Source: Deroplatys truncata
Taxonomy: Eukaryota > Arthropoda > Insecta > Mantodea > Mantidae
Assembly (NCBI GenBank): GCA_030765065.1
Contig: CM060985.1
Span: 3,534,001-3,598,000, forward strand
Length of the DNA: 64,000 nucleotides
Direction of reading: 5' to 3'
This document shows, piece by piece, positions 32,886-64,000 of the stretch. Numbering within the stretch: position 1 is the stretch's first letter; every line of letters starts with the position of its first letter. The translations under genes and the position numbers were made by a program. Under the pieces are notes generated by a model. It saw only the letters and a list, made by a program, of their open reading frames with translations. It made no database searches and was not told the origin of the DNA.

Positions 32886-33227
32886 GATAAAAAAAGAATG
32901 TGCACAAGCTTTTGATTTTTGTCTGATTTGGGCGGAGTTTAGCTTGCTGCGCTACCATTTGCTGGGTCTCGGTGTCCCCTCATGGGCGGACTAGCGACCA
33001 CGTGGTGACCAAGCCCAATGCTGCTTAACTTGGGCGACCGCTTGTGTGGTTGTCAAGTTAAGCAGGCCGGCATGGCAGCAAAGCATGATGGGAATGTAGG
33101 TAATGGGATGGGGGTACTCAAGTTGGCGGCAGGGCGGATCGTTGCTAAATGGTCACTCATCCAGCTAGCGACCGGGCCCAATGCTGCTTAACTTGGGGAA
33201 GTTTATGAAATGAGGGATTGGCAGTAC

Positions 33228-37562: not shown

Positions 37563-38106
37563 GGTTGCCCTTCGGCTGTTCGCAGAGGACCGGACCTCCG
37601 CGAGTGGAGGCGCCTGTGCGAGCCATATCGGCCCTGGGTACTGGACCAGAGGTCCTGATCCTTGGCTGTGGTCTTGCGAACCCGCTGTCTCGTGGTCCGT
37701 CAGTCAGTGTGTCCAAGTCTTGGAAAAATAGATGACAGTAAGAGAGTAGTAAGAAATGTGGGAATACCTGTTCTCGAGAATAACCGCTGGACCTTAGCGA
37801 GACCAGGGACAAGCTATCAGGGGATGCCAAGTCCACTGCTTGCCCGGCTCTGCTCGACGATTCGCCCGGACGGGCCTTTTTCTGGCGGGCTAGAAGGGGA
37901 AGCAAGTCCACTGCCCGCCAGTGATGATGGAATTACTGCTAGCTGCCGCTGAGGTGTCTCAAGAGGCGGCGATCGATGGCTCTGTAGTTGCCCAGGATGG
38001 TGCTCTGCTGCCCAAGCAGACCGAGAAGGAAGTCCCTGAAGACGCCGAAGTTCACTCGTCGGCTCCACGGTGTGGAGTGCCCCTGCGTGCGTGTGAAAAT
38101 GCGTGG

Positions 38107-40669: not shown

Positions 40670-41723
40670 ATCAGCTAAATGAAGCCACACACGCCCACTT
40701 AACAAGTGATGAAGCCTGCCACATGTCAGATTCTTTGAGAGCATGTCCCCCTCCAATCATGTATCAGCTAAATTAAGCCAGACACGCCCACTTAACATGT
40801 GATGAAGCCTGCCACATGTCAGATTCTTTGAGAGCATGTCCCCCTCCAATCATGTATCAGCTAAATTAAGCCAGACACGCCCACTTAACAAGTGATGAAG
40901 CCTGGCACATGTCAGATTCTTTGAGAGCATGTCCCCCCCAATCATGTATCAGCTAAATTAAGCCAGACACGCCCACTTAACAAGTGATGAAGCCTGACAC
41001 ATGTCAGATTCTTTGAGAGCATGTCCCCCCCAATCATGTATCAGCTAAATTAAGCCAGACACGCCCACTTAACAAGTGATGAAGCCTGACACATGTCAGA
41101 TTCTTTGAGAGCATGTCCCCCCCAATCATGTATCAGCTAAATTAAGCCAGACACGCCCACTTAACATGTGATGAAGCCTGCCACATGTCAGATTCTTTGA
41201 GAGCATGTCCCCCTCCAATCATGTATCAGCTAAATTAAGCCAGACACGCCCACTTAACAAGTGATGAAGTCTGACACATGTCAGATTCTTTGAGAGCCTG
41301 TCCCCCCCAATCATGTATCAGCTAAGTGAAGCCAGACACGCCCACTTAACAAGTGATGAAGCCTGACACATGTCAGATTCTTTGAGAGCATGTCCCCCTC
41401 CAATCATGTATCAGCTAAACGAAGCCACACACGCCCACTTAACATGTGATGAAGCCTGACACATGTCAGATTCTTTGAGAGCATGTCCCCCTCCAATCAT
41501 GTATCAGCTAAACGAAGCCACACACGCCCACTTACCATGTGATGAAGCCTGACACATGTCAGATTCTTTGAGAGCCTGTCCCCCCAATCATGTATCAGCT
41601 AAGTGAAGCCAGACACCCCCACTTAACAAGTGATGAAGCCTGACACATGTCAGATTCTTTGAGAGCTTGTCCCACCCAATCATGTATCAGCTAAATGAAG
41701 CCACACACGCCCACGTAACAAGT
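40670..41723. repeat. 93-bp satellite, block 3
   Basis: About eleven units, several with AAATTAAG in place of AAATGAAG. It ends CACGTAACAAGT directly at the 3' end of a family D copy. Confidence 0.95.
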
Positions 41724-42222
41724 ATACATACATACAAACGTAATTTAGGTTAGCAGGTGCTAACCAAGGCTGCTCAGGGTAATCCCTCTTCAGCCAAGTA
41801 ATGAGTTATTTTTATTAGTTGTAGCATCAACATTCCACAGTGTCGCCGCAACAGCATGGATGGTTGTGATTTATGGTGGTTGATAGGATCGGGGAAGTGT
41901 TTTGGGGATGGATTTTTTTTTTCGTTGGACACACGACTCACGGCTTAACCCACGGAATTTTTTTTTTTTTTGAGGGTTGATGTTTATTTTATGGACTTGT
42001 TGATTTCATGTTTCTTTTTGTATGGAGTTTGCTTTTGGTTTCTATCGTTGCTTGCTGGTTTGATTAATGTTTATTTGATTAAGTCTTGTAGGTATTGTTG
42101 TACTTCTGCTTGGTCCTCTTCATGTGTTTTTGCGGCATGATGTTTTATATATATAAGTGGAGTTAGTGTTAGTTCTCGGAGTTGGTTGTCGGCTCGCTTT
42201 TTGAAGTTCTCTTCTGATTGTA
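41724..42222 (-). mobile_element. family D copy 1, 3' end only
   Basis: About 500 bp: a tail of ATAC repeats on plus, the hairpin GGTTAGCAGGTGCTAACC, a 3' UTR and the last 60 codons of ORF2 (QSEENFKKRADNQLRELTLT). Left junction is after AACAAGT; right flank is GATGAAGCC. There is no evident target duplication. Severely 5'-truncated. Confidence 0.92.
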
Positions 42223-43152
42223 GATGAAGCCTGACACATGTCAGATTCTTTGAGAGCCTGTCCCTCCCCAATCATGTATCAGCTAAGTGAAGCCAGACAC
42301 GCCCACGTAACAAGTGATGAAGCCTGACACGTGTCAGATTCTTTGAGAGCCTGTCCCCCCAATCATGTATCAGCTAAGTGAAGCCAGACACGCCCACTTA
42401 CCATGTGATGGAGTCTGCCACATGTCAGATTCTTTGAGAGCATGTCCCTCTCCAATCATGTATCAGCTAACTGAAGCCAGACACGCCCACCTGACATTTG
42501 ATGAAGCCTGCCACATGTCAGATTCTTTGAGAGCATGTCCCTCTCCAATCATGTATCAGCTAAATGAAGCTACACACGCCAACCTAACATGTGATGAAGC
42601 GTGCCACATGTCAGATTCTTTGAGAGCATGTCTCAGTCCAATCATGTATCAGCTAAATGAAGCCAGACACGCCCACTTAACAAGTGATGAAGCCTGACAC
42701 ATGTCAGATTCTTTGAGAGCATGTCCCGCTCCAATCATGTATCAGCTAAATGAAGCCAGACACGCCCACTTAACAAGTGATGAAGCCTGACACATGTCAG
42801 ATTCTTTGAGAGCATGTCTCCCTCCAATCATGTATCAGCTAAATTAAGCCAGACACGCCCACTTAACAAGTGATGAAGCCTGACACATGTCAGATTCTTT
42901 GAGAGCATGTCTCCCTCCAATCATGTATCAGCTAAATGAAGCTACACACGCCAACCTAACATGTGATGAAGCGTGCCACATGTCAGATTCTTTGAGAGCA
43001 TGTCCCCCCCCCCAATCTTGTATCTGCTAAATGAAGCCACACACGCCAACCTAACATGTGATGAAGCGTGCCACATGTCAGATTCTTTGAGAGCATGTCT
43101 CCCTCCAATCATGTATCAGCTAAATGAAGCCAGACACGCCCACTTAACAAGT
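42223..43152. repeat. 93-bp satellite, block 4
   Basis: Ten units with distinctive variants (CCCGCTCC, GCTACACACGCCAACC, a run of nine C). The last five units, 42722-43152, match 56570-56997 in order and variants. The left part keeps a 110-codon frame made of 31-residue repeats. Ends AACAAGT next to family D. Confidence 0.95.
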
Positions 43153-43503
43153 ATACATACATACATACAAACGTAATTTAGGTTAGCAGGTGCTAACCAA
43201 GGCTGCTCAGGGTAATCCCTCTTCAGCCAAGTAATATTTTATTTTTTTGTTGTAGCATCGACATTCCACAGTGTCGCCGCAACAGCATGGATGATTGTGA
43301 TTGTGATTTATGGTGGTTGATAGGAAGGTTGATGGGATCGGGGAAGTGTTCGGACACACGACTCATTGCTTAACCCACGGAAATTTTGTTTTTTCTTGAG
43401 GGTTGATGTTTACTTTATGGACTTGTTGATTTGATGTTTCTTTTTGTATGGAGTTTGTTTTTTGTTTCTATCGTTGTTAGCTGGTTTGAATAATGTTTAT
43501 TGT

Positions 43504-46389
43504 TTATTTGATTAAGTCTTGTAGGTATTGTTGTGCTGCTGCTTGGTCCTCTTCATGTGTTTTTGTGGCATGATGTTTGATATATGTAAGTGGTGTTAGT
43601 ATTAGTTCTCGGAGTTGGTTGTCGGCTCGCTTTTTGAAGTTTTCTTCTGATTGTAGAAGCTGTTGTCGGTGTGGGAGTTTTGATGCTTTTGCTATGTATG
43701 TTGTATATGCCCGGTCGATGAATTCTTTCAATGGTTCTGTTTTAGTTAGTATATGAATATCTCTGTTGGGGTAGCAGTAGGGGACTTTTGCTGCAATGCG
43801 TAGGCATTTTCGCTCCATTGTTTCCAGCAGGTGCATGGTTGTTGGTGCTGTAATTGGGGCTAATGCTACAGCTGCGTATGTGAGGACTGGTCGGACGAGT
43901 GTTTTGTATAGGTGCAATAGTGCTTCAGTTTTGAGTCCTTCGCCTCGCTGGTTGCTCAGGAATCGTAGTGTTGCTTGGATTGGTTTTATTTGTTTCAGCT
44001 TGGAGTTGAAGTGTTGTTTGGTTTTCAGGCGACGGGTGATTAATACTCCAAGATATTTTGCTGTGGTTTGAGTTTTGATATGTGTTGTGCCTATTTTAAT
44101 TTGTAGATTTTTACGTTGAAAGCAGCTTTTTCGTTTGATGGCCAGTATTTGTGTTTTTTGTGGATTTATTGAAATGCGCCATTTGTTCGCCCAATCAGTG
44201 AAAATGGCAAGTTGCGCCTCAAGCTTTTTTTTGGCAACTGTCGGTTTCAATTCGGTGCACCAATAGAGCGTATCATCTGCATATTGGGCTAGTGAGACTG
44301 TTGGTGTTATTGGCTGAGGAGTGTCATAGGTGTAGATGATGTATAGGAGGCCAGAGATGGCACTTCCTTGGGGGGTTCCTGCTTGTAGTTGAATGAGGTC
44401 GGACAGTGTATTATTTATTTTTAGTCTGGCTGTCCTGTTGTTTAGAAAGCTGGCTGTCCAGCGCACAATGTTTTTTGGGATGTTTAATGTTGTCATTTTG
44501 AACAGGAGACCATTAATCCAGCATTTATCAAACGCTGCCTCAATATCCATGAATGCCGCTATGGTAGTTTTGCTACGGTTGTAGCCGTCTTGGAAATTGG
44601 AGAGGACTCGTAATAGTTGGTCCTGGATGGTTATATCACATCTGAAGCCTGCTTGGGTGTCAGGAATTATTTTGGTGTTCTTTATGAATGAGTGTAGGCG
44701 GTTGACCAATATTTTCTCCATTATTTTGGATAGAGTGGTCGTGAGGGAGATTGGTCGGTAGTTTTTATGGTTAGTGTTATCTTTGCCCGGTTTTTCAAAG
44801 AGCAGTATGTGTGCAAGTCGCCAGTTTTTTGGATGATAGCCATGTTTTAGGCACTTGTTGTATAGTTGATGTAATCTGTGTATCATTTCTTGTGGTAGTT
44901 CTTTGAGCATTTTATAGGTGATTTCATCCGGGCCTGGGGCTGTGTTGCCCTGGGTTTGAATGGTGGCAGTTAATTCGAAGAGTGTGATTGGTCTTGCTGG
45001 TCCTGTTGTTTCATCGGGTTCATACAGTTCATCTTGTGGGGTGTAGCCCAGTGGTGAATTGTTCACATGGTAGTTTATGCGGTTGTAATATTGTGTGTTA
45101 AATTTCGGATGTTCTGGTGTTTGGAACACGGTGTCATAGTGAGATTTAAATAGTTGTAATTTTTCTTCTGTGTTCCAGATGTGTTTGCCATCAACTTTTA
45201 TGGGGTAGGTGAAGCGTTTCTTTCCTCTTGTTGCCTTAATGAGTTGCCAGAATTTTTTGGGATCCTGTGTGCGGTTTTGATTTAGTGTCTGTATATATTC
45301 TGTCCATTTATTGGTGCGAAATTCTATTATTGCATTTTTGACTGCTTCTTGTAAATGGTTATATATTGTTTTGTCATAAGGATGATGTGTTTTCATGTAT
45401 TGGCGGTGTGCTTTCCGTTTCTCTTTAATTAATAGTATTATGTTTTTTGGTAGTGTGTTGATGTTCCTTCCCGGGTCTCGCTTGGATGTTGGAACGGCAA
45501 TCTTGCGAGCTTGTTGTATTATGTTTGTGATCGTGCTCTCTTCTTGATCAATTTGTGATGTGATATTTCCATTAGTATTTATTTCGGCGGTGGCGAGTCG
45601 CTTGTGGATTTCCTGTCTATAGAGGTTCCAATCAGCCTTTCTGTAGTCTGGTACTTCATATGGTGTCAAAGTTTCGTAGTACCATCTATTGGTGGCGATG
45701 GTTACTATGATCGGTAGGTGGTCGGTATTTAATGGCACATCTGTTTGTATTTCCAGTATTTTATGGTAAAGTTGAGGTGATGCTAGTACCTTATCTGGTG
45801 ATGTCGGTTGTTGTGTGCCTGTCCCAATTCGGGTGGGCCCGGGTATAGGTGCAATTTTTAATTTTGTTTCACTTAGTATGCGCAGTAATTCTTTGCCGTA
45901 AAGGTTTGTGGTTGTATCTAGCAGGCTGTGGTGTTGTGCATTCAGATCTCCAATGATGAGTAAGTTCTTGTATTTATTGCTAAGATATTTGATTAGGGCA
46001 ACAGGGAACTGGTTGTTCTGGATGGACATTTGATTTGGTGGTGCATAAATGGCAGCTATAACCATGCTTTGGTTGTTGAGGTGGATTTGTGTTAACACTG
46101 CCTCAGCCGCTCGGAATTCATCTGGCAGTGGTATTTGTGTTGTACGATGTATAGGTTTAATCAGTGTGACCACTCCTCCTCCTAGTCCAATTTGACGATC
46201 ATGACGGTGGGTTTGGTATGGTGAAAAAGTAAACGTGTTATAAGGTTTCAGTTTTGTTTCATTTATTGTTATTATGTCCGGGTCGTGTTCATTAATGGCT
46301 GCTTTAAGACGATCCTTTTTTGATCGAATTCCATTAATGTTAATATGCAGTACTTTGATGTGATGTTTTTCATTAATTACAGGCGCCAT
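43504..46389 (-). CDS. family D ORF2: APE endonuclease and reverse transcriptase, intact, 961 aa
   Basis: The N-terminal APE-type endonuclease includes HININGIRSKKDRL, INETKLKPY, IIGDLNAQHHSL and the catalytic NTDHLPIIVTI near residue 222. The RT spans about 480-770: NTAPGPDEITYKML, YRPISLTTTLSKIMEKIL, AAFMDIEAAFDKCWI, AGTPQGSAISGLLY (near 673) and the active site AQYADDTLYWC near 702, then KYLGVLITRRL. The C-terminal 200 residues are basic and lack RNase H. The ATG lies 14 nt upstream of the ORF1 stop in another frame (17-bp overlap). Because all copies share one target base, this endonuclease is predicted to recognise the satellite sequence; that is inference. Confidence 0.93.
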   Translation of the reverse strand: MAPVINEKHHIKVLHININGIRSKKDRLKAAINEHDPDIITINETKLKPYNTFTFSPYQTHRHDRQIGLGGGVVTLIKPIHRTTQIPLPDEFRAAEAVLTQIHLNNQSMVIAAIYAPPNQMSIQNNQFPVALIKYLSNKYKNLLIIGDLNAQHHSLLDTTTNLYGKELLRILSETKLKIAPIPGPTRIGTGTQQPTSPDKVLASPQLYHKILEIQTDVPLNTDHLPIIVTIATNRWYYETLTPYEVPDYRKADWNLYRQEIHKRLATAEINTNGNITSQIDQEESTITNIIQQARKIAVPTSKRDPGRNINTLPKNIILLIKEKRKAHRQYMKTHHPYDKTIYNHLQEAVKNAIIEFRTNKWTEYIQTLNQNRTQDPKKFWQLIKATRGKKRFTYPIKVDGKHIWNTEEKLQLFKSHYDTVFQTPEHPKFNTQYYNRINYHVNNSPLGYTPQDELYEPDETTGPARPITLFELTATIQTQGNTAPGPDEITYKMLKELPQEMIHRLHQLYNKCLKHGYHPKNWRLAHILLFEKPGKDNTNHKNYRPISLTTTLSKIMEKILVNRLHSFIKNTKIIPDTQAGFRCDITIQDQLLRVLSNFQDGYNRSKTTIAAFMDIEAAFDKCWINGLLFKMTTLNIPKNIVRWTASFLNNRTARLKINNTLSDLIQLQAGTPQGSAISGLLYIIYTYDTPQPITPTVSLAQYADDTLYWCTELKPTVAKKKLEAQLAIFTDWANKWRISINPQKTQILAIKRKSCFQRKNLQIKIGTTHIKTQTTAKYLGVLITRRLKTKQHFNSKLKQIKPIQATLRFLSNQRGEGLKTEALLHLYKTLVRPVLTYAAVALAPITAPTTMHLLETMERKCLRIAAKVPYCYPNRDIHILTKTEPLKEFIDRAYTTYIAKASKLPHRQQLLQSEENFKKRADNQLRELILTPLTYIKHHATKTHEEDQAAAQQYLQDLIK

Positions 46390-47920
46390 TTTGTTGTGTT
46401 GTTTCTAGTGTGCTTACTAGTACTGCCAGCTGGGTTCCAATGTTTGTAATGTTGATTGTTTTGTTTAGTGTCTTACGAAAGGTATCTTGAAGTGTTTTAT
46501 TTGTCCTCTCTCGGTGTTCGGGAGGTGTGATTTCTTGAATTGCCACTGTCAGGCTTTTTAGCATTTGGTCAGCAAGATGGTGGAAAAGCTTCAATACGAA
46601 GTCTGTCTGTATTTCGTGATGTTTCTTAATTTGTTCTATTTGTTCTTTTGTTTGCTGTTGTTGTTGGTTGCTGGCTTTGGTGAGATCTTTTATCAGTTTT
46701 GTGAGTTCATGCCTGTTTAGTTCAGTTTTGTTTTCAGGAATGGTAGGTAGGGGTGTGGCTTGTGTTTCATTGGTTGGTGGTGGAGGGGGAGGGGTTGGTG
46801 GAGGTGGGTTGTTGTGAGGGAATATTCTGATTGGCTGAATGTGCTGCATTGTGCTGGGGGCCTCTTTTGGGTATAATGGGCATCGTATTTGACCGGTATA
46901 GTGTCCAGGGTCATTGCATGTGGCGCAGAAAGGTTCATTTGATGTTCGGCCAGCATGTGTGCACATTTGTGTTAGTTTATTGTTTCCGCAGTAGAAGCAA
47001 CGCGGGTCATTTGTGCAGTTGTCTTGGTCATGACCGTATTTTTGACATTTACGGCATGGGACATGTCTGGTGGTTGTTCTCGCCGGTTCCACGCGGTAAA
47101 CCTGGCTTTCCAGCACAATACCTTTATTCAGGATTTCTTGTATTGTTTGCAAATCATCTGTGAATATCCGCACTAGCGGTGTTGGCTGGTTTGTAGCTCG
47201 GCTGATTATTCTCACAGCCCGGTTTATGGTTGGTTGGTTTTCCTGAATTGCACTAAGTAATTCCTCGTCAGGTACTGCGAGGGGAACATTTTTAATTACA
47301 GCTACCAATTGTCTCTTTTGTCGCGGTGAAGCGTCTTCATGGATTGGAGTTGGTAGCATGGTCAAATAGTGCGCCTGTTTTCCAAAGTTGGTGGCGCTAA
47401 TCGCCTGCTGAAATAACCGCCCTTGTTGTTCATTTTTGAATGCAATGCCCAGTGTGTATCTTGGTTTGAATATTGGGCTGATTCTGACTATCTGGATAGG
47501 CTGGTCCAGTTTTTTAGCTATTAGCTCCTTCACTCGGAAGGAGTTGATGTGTTTCTGTTCACATGGTGTGACATATAGGATGAAGCTTCCATGTGGAAGA
47601 ATTTCATTTCTGAGTGTTGGTGTTTGATGTTTTGTGTTGTCTTTCTCAGTGTTCGTGACTTGAGCTTGGATTCTCGGGCCTAGTTCACTTTCTGATTCCA
47701 GGCTTGTGTCTGAAAGGTTATTGTCTGACATTTCATCGTCTCTATGGTGGATCGGAGCTTTCTCCTGTTGTGATCTTTTAGTTGCTGTTGTTGGTTTAGT
47801 GGATGTTCCTGGTTTAGCATGGGTCGATGTAGAGTTGGATGTTCCTGGTTGAGCATGGGTTGATGTAGAGTTGTTTTCAGGTTTGTCCAGTTTAGGCGGT
47901 GGTTTTCCTGTTTTGACCAT
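46373..47920 (-). CDS. family D ORF1 (Gag-like, zinc knuckles), intact, 515 aa
   Basis: The N-terminus is rich in Ser, Thr, Pro and charged residues. A central PRE_C2HC-like block (LVAVIKNVPLAVPDEELL, LVRIFTDDLQTIQEILNKG) precedes CCHC-type knuckles: CRKCQKYGHDQDNC, CFYCGNNKLTQMC and CATCNDPGHYTGQIRC. A Pro-rich hinge and a Gln-rich helical C-terminus (NQQQQQTKEQIEQIKKH) follow. Such ORF1 proteins bind element RNA and can direct it to its target. The stop overlaps the ORF2 start. It could be the source of satellite localisation; not shown by sequence. Confidence 0.9.
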   Translation of the reverse strand: MVKTGKPPPKLDKPENNSTSTHAQPGTSNSTSTHAKPGTSTKPTTATKRSQQEKAPIHHRDDEMSDNNLSDTSLESESELGPRIQAQVTNTEKDNTKHQTPTLRNEILPHGSFILYVTPCEQKHINSFRVKELIAKKLDQPIQIVRISPIFKPRYTLGIAFKNEQQGRLFQQAISATNFGKQAHYLTMLPTPIHEDASPRQKRQLVAVIKNVPLAVPDEELLSAIQENQPTINRAVRIISRATNQPTPLVRIFTDDLQTIQEILNKGIVLESQVYRVEPARTTTRHVPCRKCQKYGHDQDNCTNDPRCFYCGNNKLTQMCTHAGRTSNEPFCATCNDPGHYTGQIRCPLYPKEAPSTMQHIQPIRIFPHNNPPPPTPPPPPPTNETQATPLPTIPENKTELNRHELTKLIKDLTKASNQQQQQTKEQIEQIKKHHEIQTDFVLKLFHHLADQMLKSLTVAIQEITPPEHRERTNKTLQDTFRKTLNKTINITNIGTQLAVLVSTLETTQQNGACN

Positions 47921-48369
47921 GGTGTAGTGGTTGATTCTGGGTTTTGGTCTGTATGTGTGGTCGTGTGTCTATTTTGAGTTTAGTGGTGATAGGGTAGGTA
48001 TTGTTATGGGCTGTGGGCGGATGGATTGGCTGCTGAGAAGCTCGTCTGGTGTGTTTGCCTCGGCCGAAGCCGAATAAGTGTGATTTCAAGAAACCACAGG
48101 GTAGTACCCTTTAACTAAGCTTAGGAAGCTTAGGGCTAATACCAGACTGGCCACAGGATAGGTAGGGTGGGTGAATTGGAAGAGGTTTTGATGATTATGA
48201 AGATGATGTCCGGCCTGAAAAAGGAAAAAAGTATTATGGTACCACAGGACCGTGGGCAGCTGCGCTGTGGTTGGTTAACGCTGCTGAGGTAGGCTGGATA
48301 TTGTAGCTATCTCCCCTGCTCTCGGCCGGCTCGATCCTGCTTTCCGGCGTTCAGGAGCCAGGAGGAGCC

Positions 48370-51268
48370 AGGAGCAAGAACAGGTCGCCCGAGTTTACTC
48401 GGGCGGAAGGTTAATCGCCACGGTACCTATCCGTTTAGTTACGGATTTACCCGTGCGGTATTAAAGATTTGTCAAATAGCAAGCGTTTTTGTCGATGTTT
48501 ACGTGATGATGGCGGTTGCTGGCCCCTTGTGGTGCTATTGGCTCGGGTCGGTGATACCGCCTGGGCGGACAAGCGACCAGACGGTGACCGAGCTCGATGC
48601 TGCTTAACTTGGCGGCCGCTTGCTGGACCGTCAGTCAAGCAGTGCCATCTAGCGGGGGCCGATGGGAATGGGTGTTTTGGTGTGAGGCTACCAAGGAAAG
48701 CAGTTGAGTGGTGCGGCTGAGTGGTCACCCAACCAGCCGTGGCCCGTCTCAATGCTGCTTAACTTGGGGTGCGTGTGGTAGATAGGATGAAGTGGCAGTT
48801 ATGGGCCAAGGGCATCCTTGGGGAGGCGGTAGCTTCTTCGTCGCCTCGGTTGGCGTTGGTCATATTGGCCAAGCACATTAACCAGTCGGTTGGGATGAGG
48901 TACAAGCTTTGTGTAAATTGTACGAGCTCTTTCTCGTACAACATCCACAATGTAGGGGAGTCCTGATTGGGAGTGAAGGATGTGTGACGGGAATCTGCGA
49001 TCTGTGCCGTAGATCATCCTTAGTGCCCTGTTCTGCACGGTCTGGAGTCTGCGCATAGTGGACGGAGCCACCGAGCCCCAGACCTCGCAGCCGTACAGAA
49101 TTAGTGGCGGAATAATCGCCCGATACAGACGCAGTTTAAGGCGGGTAGGCATTGTTGAGTGGAAGATGGGGTACAACTGCCGAAGGGCGGCGTGACCTAG
49201 GCTGGCCTTAGCCTTGACATGAGGAGTGAATGTGAGGCCGCGGTCGAGCAGAACCCCTAGGTATTTGGCGGATCGGACCCAAGGGATCCTTCTCCGCCTC
49301 AACCGCAGGGATCTCTCGGGCCGCCAGCCATGAACCTTAGCGAGCAGGAGAGCTGAGCTCTTCTGCGGGCTAATGGCCATTCTCCACTTTTCACTCCATC
49401 TGCCGATGGCCTGGAGCTGTCTCTGTAGTGGAGGGAAGCAGTAACGGACATTCTTGTTCTGTGCCAATATGAGGACATCGTCGGCATATTGGCACGTAAC
49501 AGTGCTGGGTTCCATGGGGAAGTCAGACATGTAGGCAGCGAAGAGTAACGGCGACAGTACACTGCCTTCCGGAACCCCGGCCGCTATGGGTCTGACTGAG
49601 GATAGCCGCCCCTCCACCCGCACCCTGAAAGTGCGATCCCGTAGGAAGCTGCCAATCAGGGTGAGGTAGGGGGGAGGGATGTTTGCTTCCTTGAGCTTGT
49701 ACAATAGCCCCTGGTGCCACGTTGTGGAGAAGGCCTTTTCCACGTCTAACAGCACTGCCATGGTTTTGAAGTTTTCCTGGAAGCCCAGGGCAGCCTTCTC
49801 GGCCAATCGCAATAGCTGCAGGGTCGTGGAATGTCCCCGACGAAAACCGAACTGATGATCCGGGAGGAGATGCCTATCCTCGAAAAGAGGTGTAAGGCGG
49901 GGGAGGAGCAATCGCTCAAAAACTTTTGAGACGATCGGGAGCAAGCTGATGGAGCGGTAGTTGGAAGGGAAAACCGGATCCTTGCCGGGCTTCAGAATGC
50001 AGACCACCCTCGCCTCCTTCCAACTAGTTGGAAAGTGACGGAGGTGTAGGCATGCATTATAAATCCGCGTCAAATGGATGACGGCCTTCTTGGGAAGGTG
50101 CTGTAGCACGGACGCCGTGACGCCGTCATGCCCAGGGGATTTGTTAGGGTTTAGGTTTTGGATTTGGGAGGCCACCTCTCGTGGGGTGACTATTGGGATG
50201 TGGATCTGCTCGTGGGGGGGAGGTGGGTCCTCATAGAGGTAGTCCACCGTCGCCTCCACGAGTTCAGTGAAGTCCTCGTCTTGGGGGTCTTCCCTAGGCT
50301 CGAATTGAGACTCTAGATGGTCTGCGAAATCCGTGGCTTTCTCTTGGGGCTCGAAAGCGAATCTCCCTCGAGTGCCATGCAATGGATGCTGATACTGCGT
50401 TCTGTCCCTTCTCAGGGACCTGATTATCCGCCAGGGTTGTTTCTCTTCGAGGTTGACGTTTTTCAAGGTGTTTTCCCAGGCCGCAGAGCGGTGCGCGCGA
50501 AGCAGTCGCCTAGCCAGGGTTTTGAACCGCTGGTAAACTGCTTGGATCCTGGGATGGCGGAAGCGCTGCCATAGCTTCCGAACAGTGGCCTTGGCCTTTA
50601 GCAACTGCCGGAGTTCGTTTGGTATGGTCCTCGGGTTGGGGTTGTCAGACGGGATGCGGTATGTGTGCGCGCGTACCACAGTCAGGATGTGTTGGGAGAA
50701 CGCCGCGGCTGCCGCCTCCAGCGCATCGATGGAATCGATGCGAGGACGCGGGTCCACGGTTTGGGTTAAGTCAAGGACTGCTGCATCCCAGTCGACCTCG
50801 TTGGTCCAGTCTGGTGTGACCAGAGCTGGTATGTCAACGTTGGAGTCCACCAAGACAGGGTCGTGGTCGGAATCCAGCTCGTTGACAGCCGAGAGGTCTA
50901 GATGAAATGGAATGTTCTTGGTGATCATGATGTCTAGTACATCCGGCCTGCCGCGGGCCGGGTGGAACGTAGGCCCTCTCGGGCCGTGCGCGATGAGGCT
51001 CGGGTTGCCGCTGATGAGGCGGTAGAGCCCGCGGCCTTTTGCGTTTGTAGTGCGGCTATGCCAATGGGCATGCTTCGCGTTGAGGTCTCCTGCGATGCAT
51101 ACAACTGGGTGTAGGTTCAGCAAGGTGGTGTAGTCAGCTTCGTAGAAGCGATGGTCAGGAGGGTCGTATGCCGCTATCAGCAGCGTTCCGGCGTTCACCT
51201 GCTCAAGACCTGAAGAATTTCTCAGAGGCTCGCTGTCTATTACTGCTCGGTTCTGCCGCTCGCGGAAG
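48370..51268 (-). mobile_element. family A copy 2, joined to family D copy 2, 5'-truncated
   Basis: The left end (AGAACAGGTCGCCCGAGTTT) matches the 3' end of the full-length family A element and abuts family D without satellite between. The right end at 51268 meets GATGAAGCC, the position at which family D insertions end. A segment of about 84 bp at 51186-51268 has no match to the family A copy at the same place. Divergence from the 32,788 copy is greater than that of the 59,061 copy, so it is a separate subfamily. Confidence 0.85.
48799..51184 (-). pseudogene. family A ORF2, N-terminally truncated but open
   Basis: Homology to the intact ORF2 starts at TLLIAAYDPPDHRFYEAD, i.e. mid-endonuclease, and continues through GDLNAKHAHWHS, SDHDPVLVDSN, the RT motifs (LLDVEKAFSTTWH, AGVPEGSVLSPLLF, CQYADDVLILA near 49478) to the stop at 48799. 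No stop or frameshift interrupts it. Upstream the frame stays open into satellite and reaches an ATG at 51318, but that leader is not part of the native protein. The endonuclease is incomplete, so retrotransposition competence is unlikely. Confidence 0.87.
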
Positions 51269-51455
51269 GATGAAGCCTGACACATGTCAGATTCTTTTGA
51301 GAGCATGTCCCGCTCCAATCATGTATCAGCTAAATGAAGCCAGACACGCCCACTTAACAAGTGATGAAGCCTGACACATGTCAGATTCTTTCAGAGCCTG
51401 TCCCCCTCAAATCATGTATCAGCTAAGTGAAGCCAGACACGCCCACTTACCATGT
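51269..51455. repeat. 93-bp satellite, block 5 (two units)
   Basis: Starts exactly at GATGAAGCC and ends CTTACCATGT at the next family D element. The first unit carries the CCCGCTCC variant and an extra T (TTCTTTTGAG). Confidence 0.95.
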
Positions 51456-54400
51456 ATACATACATACAAACTTAATTTAGGTTAGCAGGTGCTAACCAAG
51501 GCTGCTCAGGGTAATCCCTCTTCAGCCAAGTAATGAGTTATTTTTATTAGTTGTAGCATCAACATTCCACAGTGTCGCCGCAACAGCATGGATGATTGTG
51601 ATTTATGGTGGTTGATAGGATCGGGGAAGTGTTTTGGGGATGGATTTTTTTTTTCGTTGGACACACGACTCACGGCTTAACCCACGGAAATTTTGTTTTT
51701 TCTTGAGGGTTGATGTTTATTTTATGGACTTGTTGATTTGATGTTTCTTTTTGTATGGAGTTTGCTTTTGGTTTCTATCGTTGCTTGCTGGTTTGATTAA
51801 TGTTTATTTGATTAAGTCTTGTAGGTATTGTTGTACTTCTGCTTGGTCCTCTTCATGTGTTTTTGCGGCATGATGTTTTATATATGTAAGTGGAGTTAGT
51901 GTTTGTTCTCGGAGTTGGTTGTCGGCTCGCTTTTTGAAGTTCTCTTCTGATTGTAGAAGCTGTTGTCGGTGTGGGAGTTTTGATGCTTTTGCTATGTATG
52001 TTGTATATGCTCGGTCGATGAATTCTTTCAGTGGTTCTGTTTTAGTTAGTATATGAGTATCTCTGTTGGGGTAGCAGTAGGGGACTTTTGCTGCAATGCG
52101 TAGGCATTTCCGCTCCATTGTTTCCAGCAGGTGCATGGTGGTTGGTGCTGTGATTGGGGCTAATGCTACAGCTGCGTATGTGAGGACTGGTCGGACGAGT
52201 GTTTTGTAAAGGTGTAATAGTGCTTCAGTTTTTAGTCCTTCGCCTCGCTGGTTGCTCAGGAATCGTAGTGTTGCTTGGATTGGTTTTATTTGTTTCAGCT
52301 TGGAGTTGAAGTGTTGTTTGGTTTTCAGGCGACGGGTGATTAATACTCCAAGATATTTTGCTGTGGTTTGAGTTTTTATGTGTTGTGCCTATTTTAATTT
52401 GTAGATTTTTACGTTGAAAGCAGCTTTTTCGTTTGATGGCCAGTATTTGTGTTTTTTGCGGATTTATTGAAATGCGCCATTTGTTCGCCCAATCAGTGAA
52501 AATGGCAAGTTGCGCCTCAAGCTTTTTTTGGCAACTGTCGGTTTCAATTCGGTGCACCAATAGAGCGTATCATCTGCATATTGGGCTAGTGAGACTGTTG
52601 GTGTTATTGGCTGAGGAGTGTCATAGGTGTAGATGATGTATAGGAGGCCAGAGATGGCACTTCCTTGGGGGGTTCCTGCTTGTAGTTGAATGAGGTCGGA
52701 CAGTGTATTATTTATTTTTAGTCTGGCTGTCCTGTTGTTTAGAAAGCTGGCTGTCCAGCGCACAATGTTTTTTGGGATGTTTAATGTTGTCATTTTGAAC
52801 AGGAGACCATTAATCCAGCATTTATCAAACGCTGCCTCAATATCCATGAATGCCGCTATGGTAGTTTTGCTACGGTTGTAGCCGTCTTGGAAATTGGAGA
52901 GGACTCGTAATAGTTGGTCCTGGATGGTTATATCACATCTGAAGCCTGCTTGGGTGTCAGGAATTATTTTGGTGTTCTTTATGAATGAGTGTAGGCGGTT
53001 GACCAATATCTTCTCCATTATTTTGGATAGAGTGGTCGTGAGGGAGATTGGTCGGTAGTTTTTATGGTTAGTGTTATCCTTGCCCGGTTTTTCAAAGAGC
53101 AGTATGTGTGCAAGTCGCCAGTTTTTTGGATGATAGCCATGTTTTAGGCACTTGTTGTATAGTTGATGTAATCTGTGTATCATTTCTTGTGGTAGTTCTT
53201 TAAGCATTTTATAGGTGATTTCATCCGGGCCTGGGGCTGTGTTGCCCTGGGTTTGAATGGTGGCAGTTAGTTCGAAGAGTGTGATTGGTCCTGTTGTTTC
53301 ATAGAGTTCATCTTGTGGGGTGTAGCGCAGTGGTGAGTTGTTCACATGGTAGTTTATGCGGTTGTAGTATTGTGTGTTAAAATTCGGATGTTCTGGTGTT
53401 TGGAACACGGTGTCATAGTGAGATTTAAATAGTTGTAGTTTTTCTTGTGTGTTCCAGATGTGTTTGCCATCAACTTTTATGGGGTAGGTGGTGCGTTTCT
53501 TTCCTCTTGTTGCCTTAATGAGTTGCCAGAATTTTTTGGGGTCCTGTGTGCGGTTTTGATTTAGTGTCTGTATATATTCTGTCCATTTATTGGTGCGAAA
53601 TTCTATTATTGCGTTTTTGACTGCTCCTTGTAAATGGTTATATATTGTTTTGTCGTAAGGATGATGTGTTTTCATGTATTGGCGGTGTGCTTTCCGTTTC
53701 TCTTTAATTAATAGTATTATGTTTTTTGGTAGTGTGTTGATGTTCCTTCCCGGGTCTCGCTTGGATGTTGGAACGGCAATCTTGCGAGCTTGTTGTATTA
53801 TGTTTGTGATTGTGCTCTCTTCTTGATCAATTTGCGATGTGATATTTCCATTAGTATTTATTTCGGCGGTGGCGAGTCGCTTGTGGATTTCCTGTCTATA
53901 GAGGTTCCAATCAGCTTTTCTGTAGTCGGGTACTTCATATGGTGTCAAAGTTTCGTAGTACCATCTATTGGTGGCGATGGTTACTATGATCGGTAGGTGG
54001 TCGGTATTTAATGGCACATCTGTTTGTATTTCCAGTATTTTATGGTAAACTTGAGGTGATGCTAGTACCTTGTCTGGTGATGTCGGTTGTTGTGTGCCTG
54101 TCCCAATTCGGGTGGGCCCGGGTATAGGTGCAATCTTTAGTTTTGTTTCACTTAGTATGCGCAGTAATTCTTTACCGTAAAGGTTTGTGGTTGTATCTAG
54201 CAGGCTGTGGTGTTGTGCATTCAGATCTCCAATGATGAGTAAGTTCTTGTATTTATTGCTAAGATATTTGATTAGGGCGACGGGGAACTGGTTGTTCTGG
54301 ATGGACATTTGATTTGGTGGTGCATAAATGGCAGCTATAACCATGCACTGGTTGTTGAGGTGGATTTGTGTTAACACTGCCTCAGCCACTCGGAATTCAT

Positions 54401-54855
54401 CTGGCAGTGGTATTTGTGTTGTACGATGTATAGGTTTAATCAGTGTGACCACTCCTCCTCCTAGTCCAATTTGACGATCATGACGGTGGGTTTGGTATGG
54501 TGAAAAAGTAAACGTGTTATATGGTTTCAGTTTTGTTTCATTTATTGCTATTATGTCCGGGTCGTGTTCAGTAATGGCTGCTTTAAGACGATCCTTTTTT
54601 GATCGAATTCCATTAATGTTGATATGCAGTACTTTGATGTGATGTTTTTCATTAATTACAGGCGCCATTTTGTTGTGTTGTTTCTAGTGTGCTTACTAGT
54701 ACTGCCAGCTGGGTTCCAATGTTTGTAATGTTGATTGTTTTGTTTAGTGTTTTGCGAAAGGTATCTTGAAGTGTTTTATTTATCCTCTCTCGCTGTTCGG
54801 GAGGTGTGATTTCTTGAATTGCCACTGTCAGGCTTTTTAGCATCTGGTCAGCAAG
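51456..54855 (-). mobile_element. family D copy 3, truncated in ORF1, ORF2 frameshifted
   Basis: Starts ATACATACATACAAACTT after CCATGT. The 3' UTR resembles copy 1. ORF2 starts intact at 54668 (APVINEKHHIKV) and is open through YADD, but a 1-bp loss in a T run near 52530 and a 2-bp loss near 52376 shift the frame before the C-terminus. Only the end of ORF1 remains. The 5' end at GGTCAGCAAG is followed by CATCT and then GATGGAGCC, so satellite resumes at the same unit position as for other D copies. CATCT may be a near-copy of CATGT on the left, i.e. a 5-bp duplication. Confidence 0.9.
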
Positions 54856-54860
54856 CATCT

Positions 54861-56997
54861 GATGGAGCCTACCACATGTCAGATTCTTTGAGAGCATGTC
54901 CCCCCCTCCAATCATGTATCACCTAAATGAAGCCACACACGCACACTTAACAAGTGATGAAGCCTGGCACATGTCAGATTCTTTGAGAGCATGTCTCCCA
55001 CCAATCATGTATCAGCTAAATGAAGCCAGACACGCCAGCCTAACATGTGATGAAGCCTGACACATGTCAGATTCTTTGAGAGCATGTCTCCCTCCAATCA
55101 TGTATCAGCTAAATGAAGCCAGACACGCCCACTTAACAAGTGATGAAGCCTGACACATGTCAGATTCTTTGAGAGCATGTCCCCCCCAATCATCTATCAG
55201 CTAAATGAAGCCACACACGCCCACTTAACAAGTGATGAAGCCTGGCACATGTCAGATTCTTTGAGAGCATGTCCCCCCCAATCATGTATCAGCTAAATGA
55301 AGCCAGACACGCCCAATTAACAAGTGATGAAGCCTGGCACATGTCAGATTCTTTGAGAGCATGTCTCCCTCCAATCATGTATCAGCTAAATGAAGCCAGA
55401 CACGCCCACTTAACAAGTAATGAAGCCTGGCACATGTCAGATTCTTTGAGAGCATGTACCCCTCCAATCATGTATCAGCTAAGTGAAGCCAGACACGCCC
55501 ACTTAACATGTGATGAAGCCTGACACATGTCAGATTCTTTGAGAGCCTGTCCCCCCCAATCATGTACCAGCTAAGTGAAGCCAGACACGCCCACTTAACA
55601 AGTGATGAAGCCTGACACATGTCAGATTCTTTGAGAGCATGTACCCTCCAATCATGTATCAGCTAAGTGAAGCCAGACACGCCCACTTAACATGTGATGA
55701 AGCCTGACACATGTCAGATTCTTTGAGAGTCTGTCCCCCCCCCAATCATGTATCAGCTAAATGAAGCCAGACACGCTCACTTAACAAGTGATGAAGCCTG
55801 ACACATGTCAGATTCTTTGAGAGCATATCCCTCCCCAATAATTTATCAGCTAAATGAAGCCAGACACGCCCACGTAACAAGTGATGAAGCCTGACACATG
55901 TCAGATTCTTTGAGAGCATGTCCCCCCCAACCATGTATCAGCTAAATGAAGCCAGACACGCCCATTTAAGAAGTGATGAACCCTGACACATGTCAGATTC
56001 TTTGAGAGCATGTCCCCCCTCCAATCATGTATCAGCTAAGTGAAGCCAGACACGCCCACTTAACAAGTGATGAAACCTGCCACATGTCAGATTCTTTGAG
56101 AGCATGTCCCCCTCCAATCATGTATCAGCTAAATGAAGCCAGACACGCCCACTTAACAAGTGATGAAGCCTGACACATGTCAGATTCTTTGAGAGCATGT
56201 CCCCCTCCAATCATGTATCAGCTAAATGAAGCCAGACACGCCCACTTAACAAGTGATGAAGCCTGACACATGTCAGATTCTTTGAGAGCATGTCCCCCCT
56301 CCAATCATGTATCAGCTAAGTGAAGCCAGACACGCCCACTTAACAAGTGATGAAGCCTGCCAGATGTCAGATTCTTTGAGAGCATGTCCCCCCTCCAATC
56401 ATGTATCAGCTAAGTGAAGCCAGACACGCCCACTTAAGTGATGAAGCCTGACACATGTCAGATTCTTTGAGAGCATGTCTCCCTCCAATCATGTATCAGC
56501 TAAATGAAGCCAGACACGCCCACTTAACAAGTGATGAAGCCTGACACATGTCAGATTCTTTGAGAGCATGTCCCGCTCCAATCATGTATCAGCTAAATGA
56601 AGCCAGACACGCCCACTTAACAAGTGATGAAGCCTGACACATGTCAGATTCTTTGAGAGCATGTCTCCCTCCAATCATGTATCAGCTAAATTAAGCCAGA
56701 CACGCCCACTTAACAAGTGATGAAGCCTGACACATGTCAGATTCTTTGAGAGCATGTCTCCCTCCAATCATGTATCAGCTAAATGAAGCTACACACGCCA
56801 ACCTAACATGTGATGAAGCGTGCCACATGTCAGATTCTTTGAGAGCATGTCCCCCCCCAATCATGTATCTGCTAAATGAAGCCACACACGCCAACCTAAC
56901 ATGTGATGAAGCGTGCCACATGTCAGATTCTTTGAGAGCATGTCTCCCTCCAATCATGTATCAGCTAAATGAAGCCAGACACGCCCACTTAGTAAGT
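54861..56997. repeat. 93-bp satellite, block 6 (longest, about 23 units)
   Basis: Mixed variants of the C run, TCTCCCTCC and CCCGCTCC, including one unit shortened to CACTTAAGTGATG (about 56431). The last five units repeat the order seen at 42722-43152. Ends TTAGTAAGT at a family D element. Confidence 0.95.
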
Positions 56998-58862
56998 ATA
57001 CATACATACATACAAACGTAATTTAGGTTAGCAGGTGCTAACCAAGGCTGCTCAGGGTAATCCCTCTTCAGCCAAGTAATATTTTATTTTTTTTTGTTGT
57101 AGCATCGACATTCCACAGTGTCGCCGCAACAGCATGGATGATTGTGATTGTGATTTATGGTGGTTGATAGGAAGGTTGATAGGATCGGGGAAGTGTTCCG
57201 ACACACGACTCATTGTTTAACCCACGGAAATTTTGTTTTTTCTTGAGGGTTGATGTTTACTTTATGGACTTGTTGATTTGATGTTTCTTTTGTATGGTGT
57301 TTGTTTTTTGTTTCTATCGTTGTTTACTGGTTTGAATAATGTTTAGTTGATTAATTCTTGTAGGTATTGTTGTGCTGCTGCTTGATCCTCTTCATGTGTT
57401 TTTGTGGCATGATGTTTGATATATGTAAGTGGTGTTAGTATTAGTTCTCGGAGTTGATTGTCGGCTCGCTTTTTGAAGTTATCTTCTGACTGTAGAAGCT
57501 GTTGTCGGTGTGGGAGTTTTGATGCTTTTGCTATGTATGTTGTATATGCCCGGTCGATGAATTCTTTCAGTGGTTCTGTTTTAGTTAGTATATGAATATC
57601 TCTGTTGGGGTAGCAGTAGGAGACTTTTGCTGCAATGCGTAGGCATTTTCGCTCCATTGTTTCCAGCAGGTGCATGGTGGTTGGTGCTGTGATTGGGGCT
57701 AATGCAACAGCTGCGTATGTGAGGACTGGTCGGACGAGTGTTTTGTATAGGTGCAATAGTGCTTCAGTTTTGAGTCCTTCGCCTCGCTGGTTGCTCAGGA
57801 ATCGTAGTGTTGCTTGTATTGGTTTTATTTGTTTCAGTTTGGAGTTGAAGTGTTGTTTGGTTTTCAGGCGACGGGTGATTAATACTCCAAGATATTTTGC
57901 TGTGGTTTGAGTTTTGATATGTGTTGTGCCTATTTTAATTTGTAGATTTTTACGTTGAAAGCAGCTTTTTCGTTTGATGGCCAGTATTTGTGTTTTTTGC
58001 GGATTTATTGAAATGCGCCATTTGTTCGCCCAATCAGTGAAAATGGCTAGTTGCGCCTCAAGCTTTTTTTTGGCAACTGTCGGTTTCAATTCGGTACACC
58101 AATAGAGCGTATCATCTGCATATTGGGCTAGTGAGACTGTTGGTGTTATTGGCTGAGGAGTGTCATAGGTGTAGATGATGTATAGGAGGCCAGAGATGGC
58201 ACTTCCTTGGGGGGTTCCTGCTTGTAGTTGAATGAGGTCGGACAGTGTATTATTTATTTTTAGTCTGGCTGTCCTGTTGTTTAGAAAGCTGGCTGTCCAG
58301 CGCACAATGTTTTTTGGGATGTTTAATGTTGTCATTTTGAACAGGAGACCATTAATCCAGCATTTATCAAACGCTGCCTCAATATCCATGAATGCCGCTA
58401 TGGTAGTTTTGCTACGGTTGTAGCCGTCTTGGAAATTGGAGAGGACTCGTAATAGTTGGTCCTGGATGGTTATATCACATCTGAAGCCTGCTTGGGTGTC
58501 AGGAATTATTTTTGTGTTCTTTATGAATGAGTGTAGGCGGTTGACCAATATTTTCTCCATTATTTTGGATAGAGTGGTCGTGAGGGAGATTGGTCGGTAG
58601 TTTTTATGATTAGTGTTATCTTTGCCCGGTTTTTCAAAGAGCAGTATATGTGCAAGTCGCCAGTTTTTTGGATGATAGCCATGTTTTAGGCACTTGTTGT
58701 ATAGTTGATGTAATCTGTGTATCATTTCTTGTGGTAGTTCTTTGAGCATTTTATAGGTGATTTCATCCGGGCCTGGAGCTGTGTTGCCCTGGGTTTGAAT
58801 GCTGGCAGTTAATTCGAAGAGTGTGATTGGTCTTGCTGGTCCTGTTGTTTCGTCGGGTTCAT
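56998..58862 (-). mobile_element. family D copy 4, 5'-truncated within ORF2
   Basis: Starts ATACATACATACATACAAAC; its 3' UTR shares copy 2's markers (doubled GATTGTGATT, GGAAGGTTGAT). ORF2 is open from 57343 up to the truncation at GGGTTCAT, keeping RT motifs EAAFDKCWI, AGTPQGSAISGLLY and AQYADDTLYWC; the endonuclease is absent. Right flank GATGAAGCC. The frame runs on in phase into satellite, giving a satellite-encoded leader (MERDMLSKNLTCVRLHH) on the RT. Confidence 0.92.
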
Positions 58863-59060
58863 GATGAAGCCTGACACATGTCAGATTCTTTGAGAGCATG
58901 TCCCGCTCCAATCATGTATCAGCTAAATGAAGCCAGACACGCCCACTTAACAAGTGATGAAGCCTGACAGATGTCAGATTCTTTGAGAGCATGTCTCCCT
59001 CCAATCATGTATCAGCTAAATGAAGCCAGACACGCCCACTTAAGTGATGAAGCCTGACAG
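58863..59060. repeat. 93-bp satellite, block 7 (two units)
   Basis: Begins GATGAAGCC with a CCCGCTCC first unit, as does block 5. The second unit is short at its end (CACTTAAGTGATGAAGCC) and stops at CCTGACAG where family A copy 3 begins. Confidence 0.93.
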
Positions 59061-60831: not shown

Positions 60832-61079
60832 TGAATCCACACACGCCCACTTAACAAGTGATGAAGCCTGCCAGATGTCAGATTCTTTGAGAGCATGTCC
60901 CTCTCCAATCATGTATCAGCTAAATGAAGCCAGACACGCCCACTTAACAAGTGATGAAGCCTGACACATGTCAGATTCTTTGAGAGCATGCCCCCCTCCC
61001 CAATAATTTATCAGCTAAATGAAGCCAGACACGCCCACTTAACAAGTGATGAAGCCTGACACATGTCAGATTCTTTGAG
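60832..61079. repeat. 93-bp satellite, block 8
   Basis: Fewer than three units, ending CAGATTCTTTGAG, the left side of the family B insertion. One unit has AATAATTTATCAG instead of AATCATGTATCAG. Confidence 0.94.
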
Positions 61080-62864
61080 CGGCCTGCACTTCTCCTCAGA
61101 GGAGAAAGCCGAGATTTTCGCCGACTGTCTGCAAGACAGATTCTCAGAAAACATTACTCACAATCTCACCAAAGCACAAGAAGTACAGACATGGGTACAA
61201 AACTGGATGGCGCAGAAGCGTGAGCAACATCACCCACATATAACACCGCAGGAAGTGTACAAGCTCATTAGGCAATTGCCTAATGGGAAAGCCGCCGGCC
61301 CGGACAGGGTGACTAATGAGGAACTCAAACATCTCCCGAGAAAAGCCCTGGTGCAACTCACCAAGATTTTCAACGCCTGTTTGAGGTATAACTATTTCCC
61401 AGCCACTTGGAAACGAGCCAAGGTGATTATGCTGCCTAAGCAAGGGAAAAGCACCAGGCAACCTCAAAATTACCGCCCCATTAGTCTCCTGTCTAGTATT
61501 GGCAAATTGCTTGAGAAAATTATACTTTATCGACTCCAAAAACAAGTTTCGGAAACTAATGAATTTTCAAAATCTCAGTTTGGTTTTAGAAAAGCACACT
61601 CTACAGAATTACAGCTCTTACGACTTGCTGATGACATAACCGAGCAATTTAACAATGGGGCTTCAACGTTGGCGTTATTTCTGGACGTAGAAGCCGCATT
61701 CGACCGGTGCTGGCATAATGGCCTGCTTTACAAACTGCACCACAACTTTCCCGGCCTCCAGGATTATATGTTCTTAATTCAAAATTACTTAGAAAACCGG
61801 CGCTTCTACGTCCAAGTGGGCCGCTCCTCCTCCCGGGAGCGAGTTATGCGGGCTGGCGTCCCTCAAGGGGCTATAATGTCCCCCTTTTTGTACATATTAT
61901 TTACTAATGATTTCCCTGTGGACGCCAGATGCAAAATCGCAATGTATGCTGACGACACTGCAATCTACAACCACCACAAAAATCCTCGTTTCGGCCTTTT
62001 GGAAATACAGCGGTATGTTGACCGCTTCCTCTCGTGGCTCCACGATTGGAAAGTCGAAATTAATGCAAATAAGTGCCAGCTAATTTATTTCTCTAAGCGG
62101 GCACGCCCTCCGGCAATGGACCTAACGGTCGGTGGTCAAAGATTGCACTGCCGTCAGCAAATCAAGTACCTTGGCGTGACCATGGATCACACAATGCCAT
62201 GGACAACCCACTTAAAAAATACCGCCAACAAAGGGCGGCAGCGATTAAAGTTATGCGCCCCCGTCTTCCGCAACAACAAACTTAAATTAAAATCCAAACT
62301 TATTTTGTATAAGTCATTTATCTTATCAGTGGTCCTCTACGCCTGTGTGGCTTGGGCGAGCGCCTCTAAAACTGCCCTCCAATACCTCCAGACTGTCCAA
62401 AACATTTCCCTCAGGAAAATTCTCCAAGTCCCCTTCTTCACAAACAATAGAACCCTACACGACGAAACCAACATGCCAACAATAGCAGAAGCAATAAACA
62501 AAAGAGGCTGCTCCGTATGGGCGCGCATACGCCGACATGACAACCATCTCATTTCCAACATCGGCAGTGGCGAGCCAAAACATCGCAAACATGCACGCAT
62601 TAAAATGTTCTGAAACAACTCTGGCTCGTCACTTTGCGCGCCCATCTCACCCGGCCCAAGGCCACACACAAATACGGCAGAGGCCCCCGCCAGATGGCGT
62701 CCCCTTCACGGAGGATACACGCTGCCGCACAGCAAAACCGCGGACTTGTATATAGTCAGTGTTAAGTGTTTTTTATTTATTTCGTGTGCTAGTGTTTCCG
62801 TGTGTCGGAACTGGGACGTGCAGCGCATGACCAGCAATGTGTGACCGTGCGTGTGCGTGTGTGT

Positions 62865-62901
<37 letters not shown>

Positions 62902-63132
62902 CATGTGTGGAAAAAAAAACTGGTTTTTAAACTGAAACATAAACCGCAACATACAGAACAAAACTGTCCTCGGCAACCTAATGATGGTTGCTGTATGGGT
63001 TTTTATATTTCTTTTTTCAATAACCTCATACAAACAAGCAATATGTAAATCAATGTAAATTTATGCCTGTAAGCCGGGCCCTTTGTACCGGCACCAGGTC
63101 ACATTTCTTTAATAAATAAATCTGAATCTGAA
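61080..63132 (+). mobile_element. family B copy 2, plus strand, 5'-truncated
   Basis: It is flanked by TCTTTGAG on both sides (61072-61079 and 63133-63140). The tail is AATAAATAAATCTGAATC, the mirror of the family B copy at 39023. The RT frame ends at 62613 and includes GKAAGPDRVTNEELKHLP, YRPISLLSSIGKLLEKII, LFLDVEAAFDRCWH, AGVPQGAIMSPFLY, AMYADDTAIYN (near 61943) and YLGVTMDHTMPW. The upstream ATG at 61063 is in satellite. The endonuclease is missing. The 3' UTR has a GT microsatellite at 62849-62900. It is the only clearly plus-oriented insertion in the satellite. Confidence 0.93.
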
Positions 63133-63295
63133 TCTTTGAGAGCATGTCCCCCCCAATCATGTATCAGCTAAATGAAGCCAGACACGCCCACTTAACAAGT
63201 GATGAAGCCTGACACATGTCAGATTCTTTGAGAGCATGTCCCCCTCCCCAATAATTTATCAGCTAAATGAAGCCACACACGCCCACTTAACAAGT
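63133..63295. repeat. 93-bp satellite, block 9
   Basis: Starts with the TCTTTGAG duplication and ends CACTTAACAAGT at the fifth family D copy. Confidence 0.94.
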
Positions 63296-64000
63296 ATACA
63301 TATACATACAAACGTAATTATTCCATCTCGAAAACACAACCTTAAAACAAAACTTCCTGCAGAACATACACATCCTACTGCTCATTTCGCAGGTTAAGCC
63401 GCAAAGCGGCTCGGTACTGCGGCAACTGACACACGACGGGGGCAAAGTCCCCGATCGTCCTGACATTCCTCTGGCCTCTAGGTTAGCAGGTGCTAACCAA
63501 GGCTGCTCAGGGTAATCCCTCTTCAGCCAAGTAATGAGTTATTTTTATTGGTTGTAGCATCGACATTCCACAGTGTCGCCGCAACAGCATGGATGATTGT
63601 GATTTATGGTGGTTGATACGATCGGGGAAGTGTTTTGGGGATTTTTTTTTTTTTTTTGCATTGGACACACGACTCACGGCTTAACCCACGGAAATTTTGT
63701 TTTTTCTTGAGGGTTGATGTTTACTTTATGGACTTGTTGAATTGATGTTTCTTTTGTATGGAGTTTGCTTTTGGTTTCTATCATTGCTTGCTGGTTTGAT
63801 TAATGTTTATTTGATTAAGTCTTGTAGGTATTGTTGTGCTTCTGCTTGGTCCTCTTCATGTGTTTTTGTGGCATGATGTTTTATATATGTAAGTGGAGTT
63901 AGTGTTAGTTCTCGGAGTTGGTTGTCGGCTCGCTTTTTGAAGTTTTCTTCTGATTGTAGAAGCTGTTGTCGGTGTGGGAGTGATGCTTTTGCTATGTATG
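63296..64000 (-). mobile_element. family D copy 5, continues past the window
   Basis: Starts ATACATATACATACAAACGT after AACAAGT. The usual 3' UTR is interrupted by 159 bp at 63320-63478. It resumes with the GGTTAGCA/TGCTAACC hairpin, then ORF2's C-terminus (from about 63790 to the window edge, SEENFKKRADNQLREL). Near 63980 a 3-bp loss (GGGAGTGATGC) removes a codon relative to other copies. The 5' end is outside. Confidence 0.9.
63320..63478. other. 159-bp extra block in the 3' UTR of family D copy 5
   Basis: The other four copies read ACGTAATT directly followed by TAGGTTAGC; here 159 bp separate these halves. The block contains short hairpins (GCCGCAAAGCGGC and CGGGGGCAAAGTCCCCG) and no ORF. 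No target duplication is visible, so it may be an insertion or an ancestral piece lost from the others. I do not recognise it. Confidence 0.6.

Follow-up and report, generated by a model that had tools for sequence, protein, structure and literature searches.

Repeated insertion of the LINE D at one base of a 93-bp satellite array in Deroplatys truncata, with most scored copies elsewhere in the genome

A tandem array of a 93-bp satellite in the mantis Deroplatys truncata is interrupted by several copies of a LINE, here called D, and all of these copies join it at one and the same position within the unit. Such a locus raises the question of whether D is specialised for the satellite, whether one insertion was multiplied together with the array, whether the repeat has a fragile place, or whether an otherwise dispersed element has one strongly favoured base. 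The window, i.e., the whole stretch of 64,000 nucleotides that was analysed, corresponds to C11:3,534,001-3,598,000 (C11 being contig CM060985.1) of an assembly of 4.29 Gb in 818 contigs. The array was read on to 3,633,070, and the joined 99-kb stretch holds ~29.6 kb of satellite in total with 312 complete 93-bp units; the array may continue beyond it. In an assembly-wide search, a 131-base satellite query gave at least 90 matches, 90/90 of them on C11 at ~3.566-3.633 Mb, counts with this query being lower bounds. Two further tandem arrays are present in the window, at 6615-12991 (74-bp unit, 86 copies) and at 24891-26165 (85-bp unit, 15 copies), and both strands of 14165-15896 contain reading frames, of which one matches GIY-YIG; we take this segment to be Penelope-like.

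D is ~5.3 kb long and has a tail of GTAT repeats. In the copy designated c2, ORF1 occupies 46373..47968 (minus strand, 531 codons from stop to stop) and ORF2 occupies 43504..46404 (minus strand, 966 codons from stop to stop). A Pfam domain search matched an AP-type endonuclease (PF03372/PF14529) and a reverse transcriptase (PF00078) in ORF2, with no match to RNase H at E 0.001, and gave no match in Pfam for ORF1, in which a CCHC-like cysteine pattern was spotted by eye. A protein search with ORF2 returned as its best match an unnamed protein (31% identity over 89%), the other hits being mainly unnamed as well. Both the domains of ORF2 and the insertion traits described below, namely target duplications and 5' truncation, are those of an apurinic-endonuclease LINE. 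By its gene content, D may be of the Jockey type.

The window's five D copies all lie on the minus strand. Re-reading confirmed the 3' ends that the initial annotation had placed at 41723/41724, 43152/43153, 51455/51456, 56997/56998, and 63295/63296, in each case immediately following AAGT (ATGT in c3), as well as the resumption of the satellite as GATGAAG or GATGGAG at the four right-hand sides (42223, 51269, 54861, and 58863). Three of the copies are 5'-truncated: c1 (41724..42222), which starts near D position 4768, c3 (51456..54860), the 5' junction of which has ~four extra bases without a match to c2, and c4 (56998..58862). Copy c2 is a full-length D that consists of a main part (43153..48353), interrupted by another element, and of its first ~83 bases (51186..51268), and it has the same 5' start as the dispersed full-length copies. 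The 3' part of c5 (63296..64000) carries an insert of ~160 bases in the 3'UTR (63317-63478), and the copy extends past the window to a full-length 5' end. A sixth array copy, c6 (also listed as L027), lies at C11:3,623.7 kb, 26 kb downstream of the window. The intervening satellite, on the plus strand, occupies 40664..41723 to the left of c1, 42223..43152 between c1 and c2, 51269..51455 between c2 and c3, 54861..56997 between c3 and c4, and 58863..59059 after c4.

Copies c1-c6 share a single insertion base in the satellite and a single orientation (6/6), the site reading CTTCATC^ACTTGTTAAGTG in the D sense. The truncated c1, c3, and c4 and the full-length c2 are joined directly to CTTCATC (CTCCATC in c3), without any duplication, and the full-length c5 and c6 have ACTTGTTAAGTG on both sides, which is a 12-bp target duplication. 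The earlier description of the insertions as having little or no target duplication is therefore true of c1-c4 only, and the observation of differing 5' ends is supported. A target duplication of one whole 93-bp unit was also considered and rejected; the units to the left and right of one copy are no more alike than units compared between copies.

The interruption of c2 is due to E (48354..51185, minus strand), a LINE related to E1 that lies within the c2 5'UTR. Because E sits between two copies of TGAACGCCGGAA in the D 5'UTR, one of them included in the first ~83 bases of c2, the apparent junction of E with the satellite at 51268 is D's own 5' end, and 51268/51269 is the true 5' junction. E beside c2 is thus a later insertion inside the 5' end of D. 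A template jump from D to E is ruled out, both by the dispersed full-length copies, which place the 5' end of D at 51268, and by the 12-bp repeat that flanks E. Other LINEs in the array use other places and serve as counter-examples: F1 (39023..40669, minus strand) occupies a different phase of the unit and has the direct repeat ATCAGCTAAATGA, and F2 (61080..63130, plus strand), of the same family, lies at a third phase on the other strand, also with a direct repeat. E1 itself (32786-38106) is a LINE of full-length appearance, likewise inserted in the satellite, and its direct repeat CACTTAAC falls inside the inverted repeat used by D.

The relationships of the array copies were analysed in trees from the last 1.8 kb (21 rows) and the last 0.5 kb (30 rows) of D, together with AU tests. 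In both trees, the array copies are intermixed with dispersed copies (the latter numbered with L), and a single clade of array copies was rejected (AU p 7.9e-10 with 5 copies and 1832 columns; 1.0e-42 with 6 copies and 483 columns). The label changes between array and dispersed 5 times on the tree, and at least 3 of these changes are forced by well-supported branches. Since one origin is rejected by the trees, one base has been hit repeatedly. The nearest relative of c4 is the dispersed L015 (0.33%, vs 1.48% from c2), and the copy closest to c6 is the dispersed L020 (0.41%). Copies c1 and c3 are sisters (support 100/97) with unlike flanks, and the count of insertion events may therefore be as low as 3. 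The chance of one shared phase among 186 strand-phases is 2.9e-5 for 3 independent junctions and 8e-10 for 5 junctions.

The flanks were compared over the complete units available, only one for c5 and only two for c3. On their 3' sides, c2 and c4 adjoin a common block of five units (~42688-43152 and 56533-56997), which differs by 5 edits, the next-best array block having 24 edits; the two blocks are near-identical and no other block of the array is like them, the last five units between c1 and c2 being paralogous to the units adjoining c4. By flank, these two 3' junctions are therefore not independent. Despite the common flank, the D sequences of c2 and c4 belong to different lineages, and their union in one clade was rejected (AU p 1.1e-6 and 7e-5). 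The common flank fits poorly with separate insertion of the two copies; an older block duplication with two later insertions at its edge is possible, as is a later conversion of the flank. Satellite read-through followed by homology-led re-insertion is unsupported for this pair, as L015, the copy closest to c4, is without satellite. The flank of c6 is in the nearest 1.5% to that of c2 at five units (26 edits) when seen from c2, and ordinary when seen from c6. Taken with the differing 5' ends, the trees support the earlier suggestion that D entered the same base of the unit several times in separate events, within one array.

How D behaves outside the array was examined with a query of 124 bases from its 3' end, with which the best 40 of 172 candidates were scored assembly-wide. 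The satellite harbours 6/40 of these scored 3' ends (c1-c6) and 34/40 lie outside it on many contigs, with no satellite beside the 34 in the fetched flanks (~10 kb for 19 of them, ~1.3-1.6 kb for 15). The last four of the 40 matches (72-76% identity) probably represent a related family. A 5'-end query found 12 D copies, 3/12 of them in the array. The central proposal of the initial annotation, that D is site-specific for the satellite, is thus not borne out, with 34/40 scored 3' ends in non-satellite DNA and the satellite at one locus only; most scored copies ending outside the satellite is the very outcome that the annotation had set against its own proposal. Of the two marks of strict target specificity, independent copies at the same base are found, within one array, and a majority of copies at one target is not (6/40 scored).

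After L022 and L031 (repeats of L021) and c6 were dropped, direct repeats of 10-13 bp were found at the ends of 10/18 distinct dispersed copies with both ends, and 8/18 had no clear duplication. Further duplications are present in L032 (10 bp) and, as judged by eye, in L035 (14 bp) and L036 (9 bp). In L016 (C11:349300-359257), D is inserted without duplication in another tandem array (100-bp unit, 14 copies), and with D removed this array runs on with 0% indels.

The dispersed sites have a feature in common upstream of the nick. TATA or TATG (TATR) starts 16-21 bp upstream at 12/22 sites, where 0.068 per site is expected, and is absent from 10/22. It is present at -21..-16 in 9/13 sites with a duplication that fixes the nick vs 3/9 without one, the nick of these 9/22 sites being taken from the 5' break. 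TATR occurs 16 times at starts -21..-16 vs 9 times at the other 51 starts. Exact TATAWA starts only at -20 to -17 (6/21 sites; background 0.013 per site) and nowhere else in -80..-6. The TATA box was first noticed on 18 sites, and the motif was partly picked post hoc. Among sites fetched later, L030, L035, and L036 have TATAWA at one mismatch or less (background 0.118), L032 has TATG only, and L038, the ends of which are unclear, has no such word. In an unguided 4-mer scan, TTGG at -51 came out on top, followed by CTAT, GGCT, TATA, ATAA, and TATG, and 13/300 shuffles scored as high. Site motifs were counted without L033 and L034, which are near-identical, and without L037, whose 5' end was not reached, and L038, and the nick of L032 was placed one base downstream of the longest repeat in the TATR count, which left the count unchanged.

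The satellite has CATG at -18, one letter off TATG, and TATR itself is absent. The initial annotation had proposed that the nuclease would recognise AACAAGT/GATGAAG. In a matrix of the dispersed sites, the satellite base does not stand out by the bases around the nick (rank 68 or 45 of 186) and ranks 4th or 7th of 186 by the 24 upstream bases; as a prediction of the satellite base this is weak. The full-length dispersed copies L010, L013, L015, L017, L023, L024, and L035 start 27-32 bp downstream of TATA/TATG, a spacing seen in 7/8 full-length dispersed copies with a readable duplication (the exception is L020). From these site sequences one might suppose, very doubtfully, that D reads a TATA-like word as an address and cuts ~18 bp downstream, a full-length copy then starting at the distance of a transcription start from its TATA box, and the satellite hotspot being a second, TATA-less address. 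If this were true, D would be a LINE that inserts so that transcription from a borrowed promoter would begin at its own first base. The TATA-like word of L013 lies inside a pol-like reading frame, which counts against a promoter reading, and a promoter complex as the guide of D was rejected on this ground. LINE promoters as such are treated in passages of PMC4748587.

Which explanation, then, fits the array? Strict specificity for the satellite, as that of R1/R2 for rDNA, with all other copies as rare misses, would account for the one base common to the six array copies and for the share of 5' ends in the array (3/12), and is nevertheless scarcely credible, because the 34/40 scored 3' ends outside the satellite are spread over many contigs and have target duplications, and the satellite search pointed to a single locus. 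It is also quite unlikely that the array copies all descend from a single D insertion through duplication and conversion of the array, the common base being inherited and not re-targeted. The unique 5-unit flank common to c2 and c4, the sister relationship of c1 and c3, and the identical 12-bp duplication in c5 and c6 are what such a history would leave behind, but the AU tests speak against one clade and against c2 with c4, the flanks of c1 and c3 are unlike, and the copies, for all their differing 5' ends, join the satellite at one common base.

An unlikely alternative is that the satellite breaks easily, or is already nicked, at the inverted repeat CACTTGTTAAGTG, and that D only exploits the break. 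The 12-bp duplication covers nearly all of this inverted repeat, the direct repeat of E1 is inside it, one end of the insertion G adjoins it, and c1-c4 are without duplications; against this, E2, F1, and F2 are inserted at other places of the unit, c5 and c6 have the usual staggered duplication of D, and such an inverted repeat was shown at no dispersed site. We consider it probable that D is a LINE with a relative site preference, dispersed by target-primed reverse transcription, with one exceptional hotspot at one satellite base. Under a relative preference with such a hotspot, the D endonuclease would favour this one base. Judging from the junctions, the first nick would be made in the opposite strand, opposite C^A, where the cDNA would be primed, and the second cut would follow ~12 bases on. 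Copying of the 12-base overhang would produce the duplication in c5 and c6, and either trimming of the overhang or ligation of the cDNA across the nick would produce the duplication-free junctions of c1-c4, ligation across the nick placing the 5' junction exactly at the nick.

The array separates two look-alikes: specialisation of an element for a repeat, and a single strong hotspot of an element that has no such specialisation. Its six copies, with the 12-bp duplication present in two and absent from four, also form a natural series on how second-strand cutting and end joining govern whether a duplication is left behind by a LINE. Compared with known systems, D resembles Jockey-type LINEs in having ORF1 and an ORF2 that matches endonuclease and reverse transcriptase but not RNase H, and differs from them in its tail of GTAT repeats. 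By title and abstract, in literature without most subscription journals, we found neither a Jockey-type LINE phase-locked in a satellite nor a TATA-guided LINE. Like R1, R2, Tx1, and other target-specific non-LTR elements, D has inserted more than once at a single base of a repeat, whereas most scored D copies are elsewhere; in the passages concerned of PMC4640811, most strictly target-specific non-LTR families belong to the early-branched, Tx1, and R1 groups. The same passages describe YURE of Ciona as having weak specificity with occasional insertion in a U2-derived satellite, which is similar to D, but the group of YURE has a restriction-like endonuclease and D has one of the apurinic type. 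Retroposons of the ingi clade show relative site specificity, and the pattern conserved upstream of their insertions is regarded as the place where the endonuclease binds (PMC3820030). In behaviour, the only respect compared here, D is like ingi/L1Tc of trypanosomatids, as far as these are described there, in having an upstream pattern without a fixed single target, since a motif is found at a set distance upstream of first-strand cleavage. It differs in host, clade, and pattern, the D motif being short (TATR, partly picked post hoc, at 12/22 sites), and the passages concerned mention no satellite hotspot for ingi. If the TATR rule is true, D would be an insect-type LINE with a readable address rule like that of ingi, its full-length copies tending to start at promoter distance.
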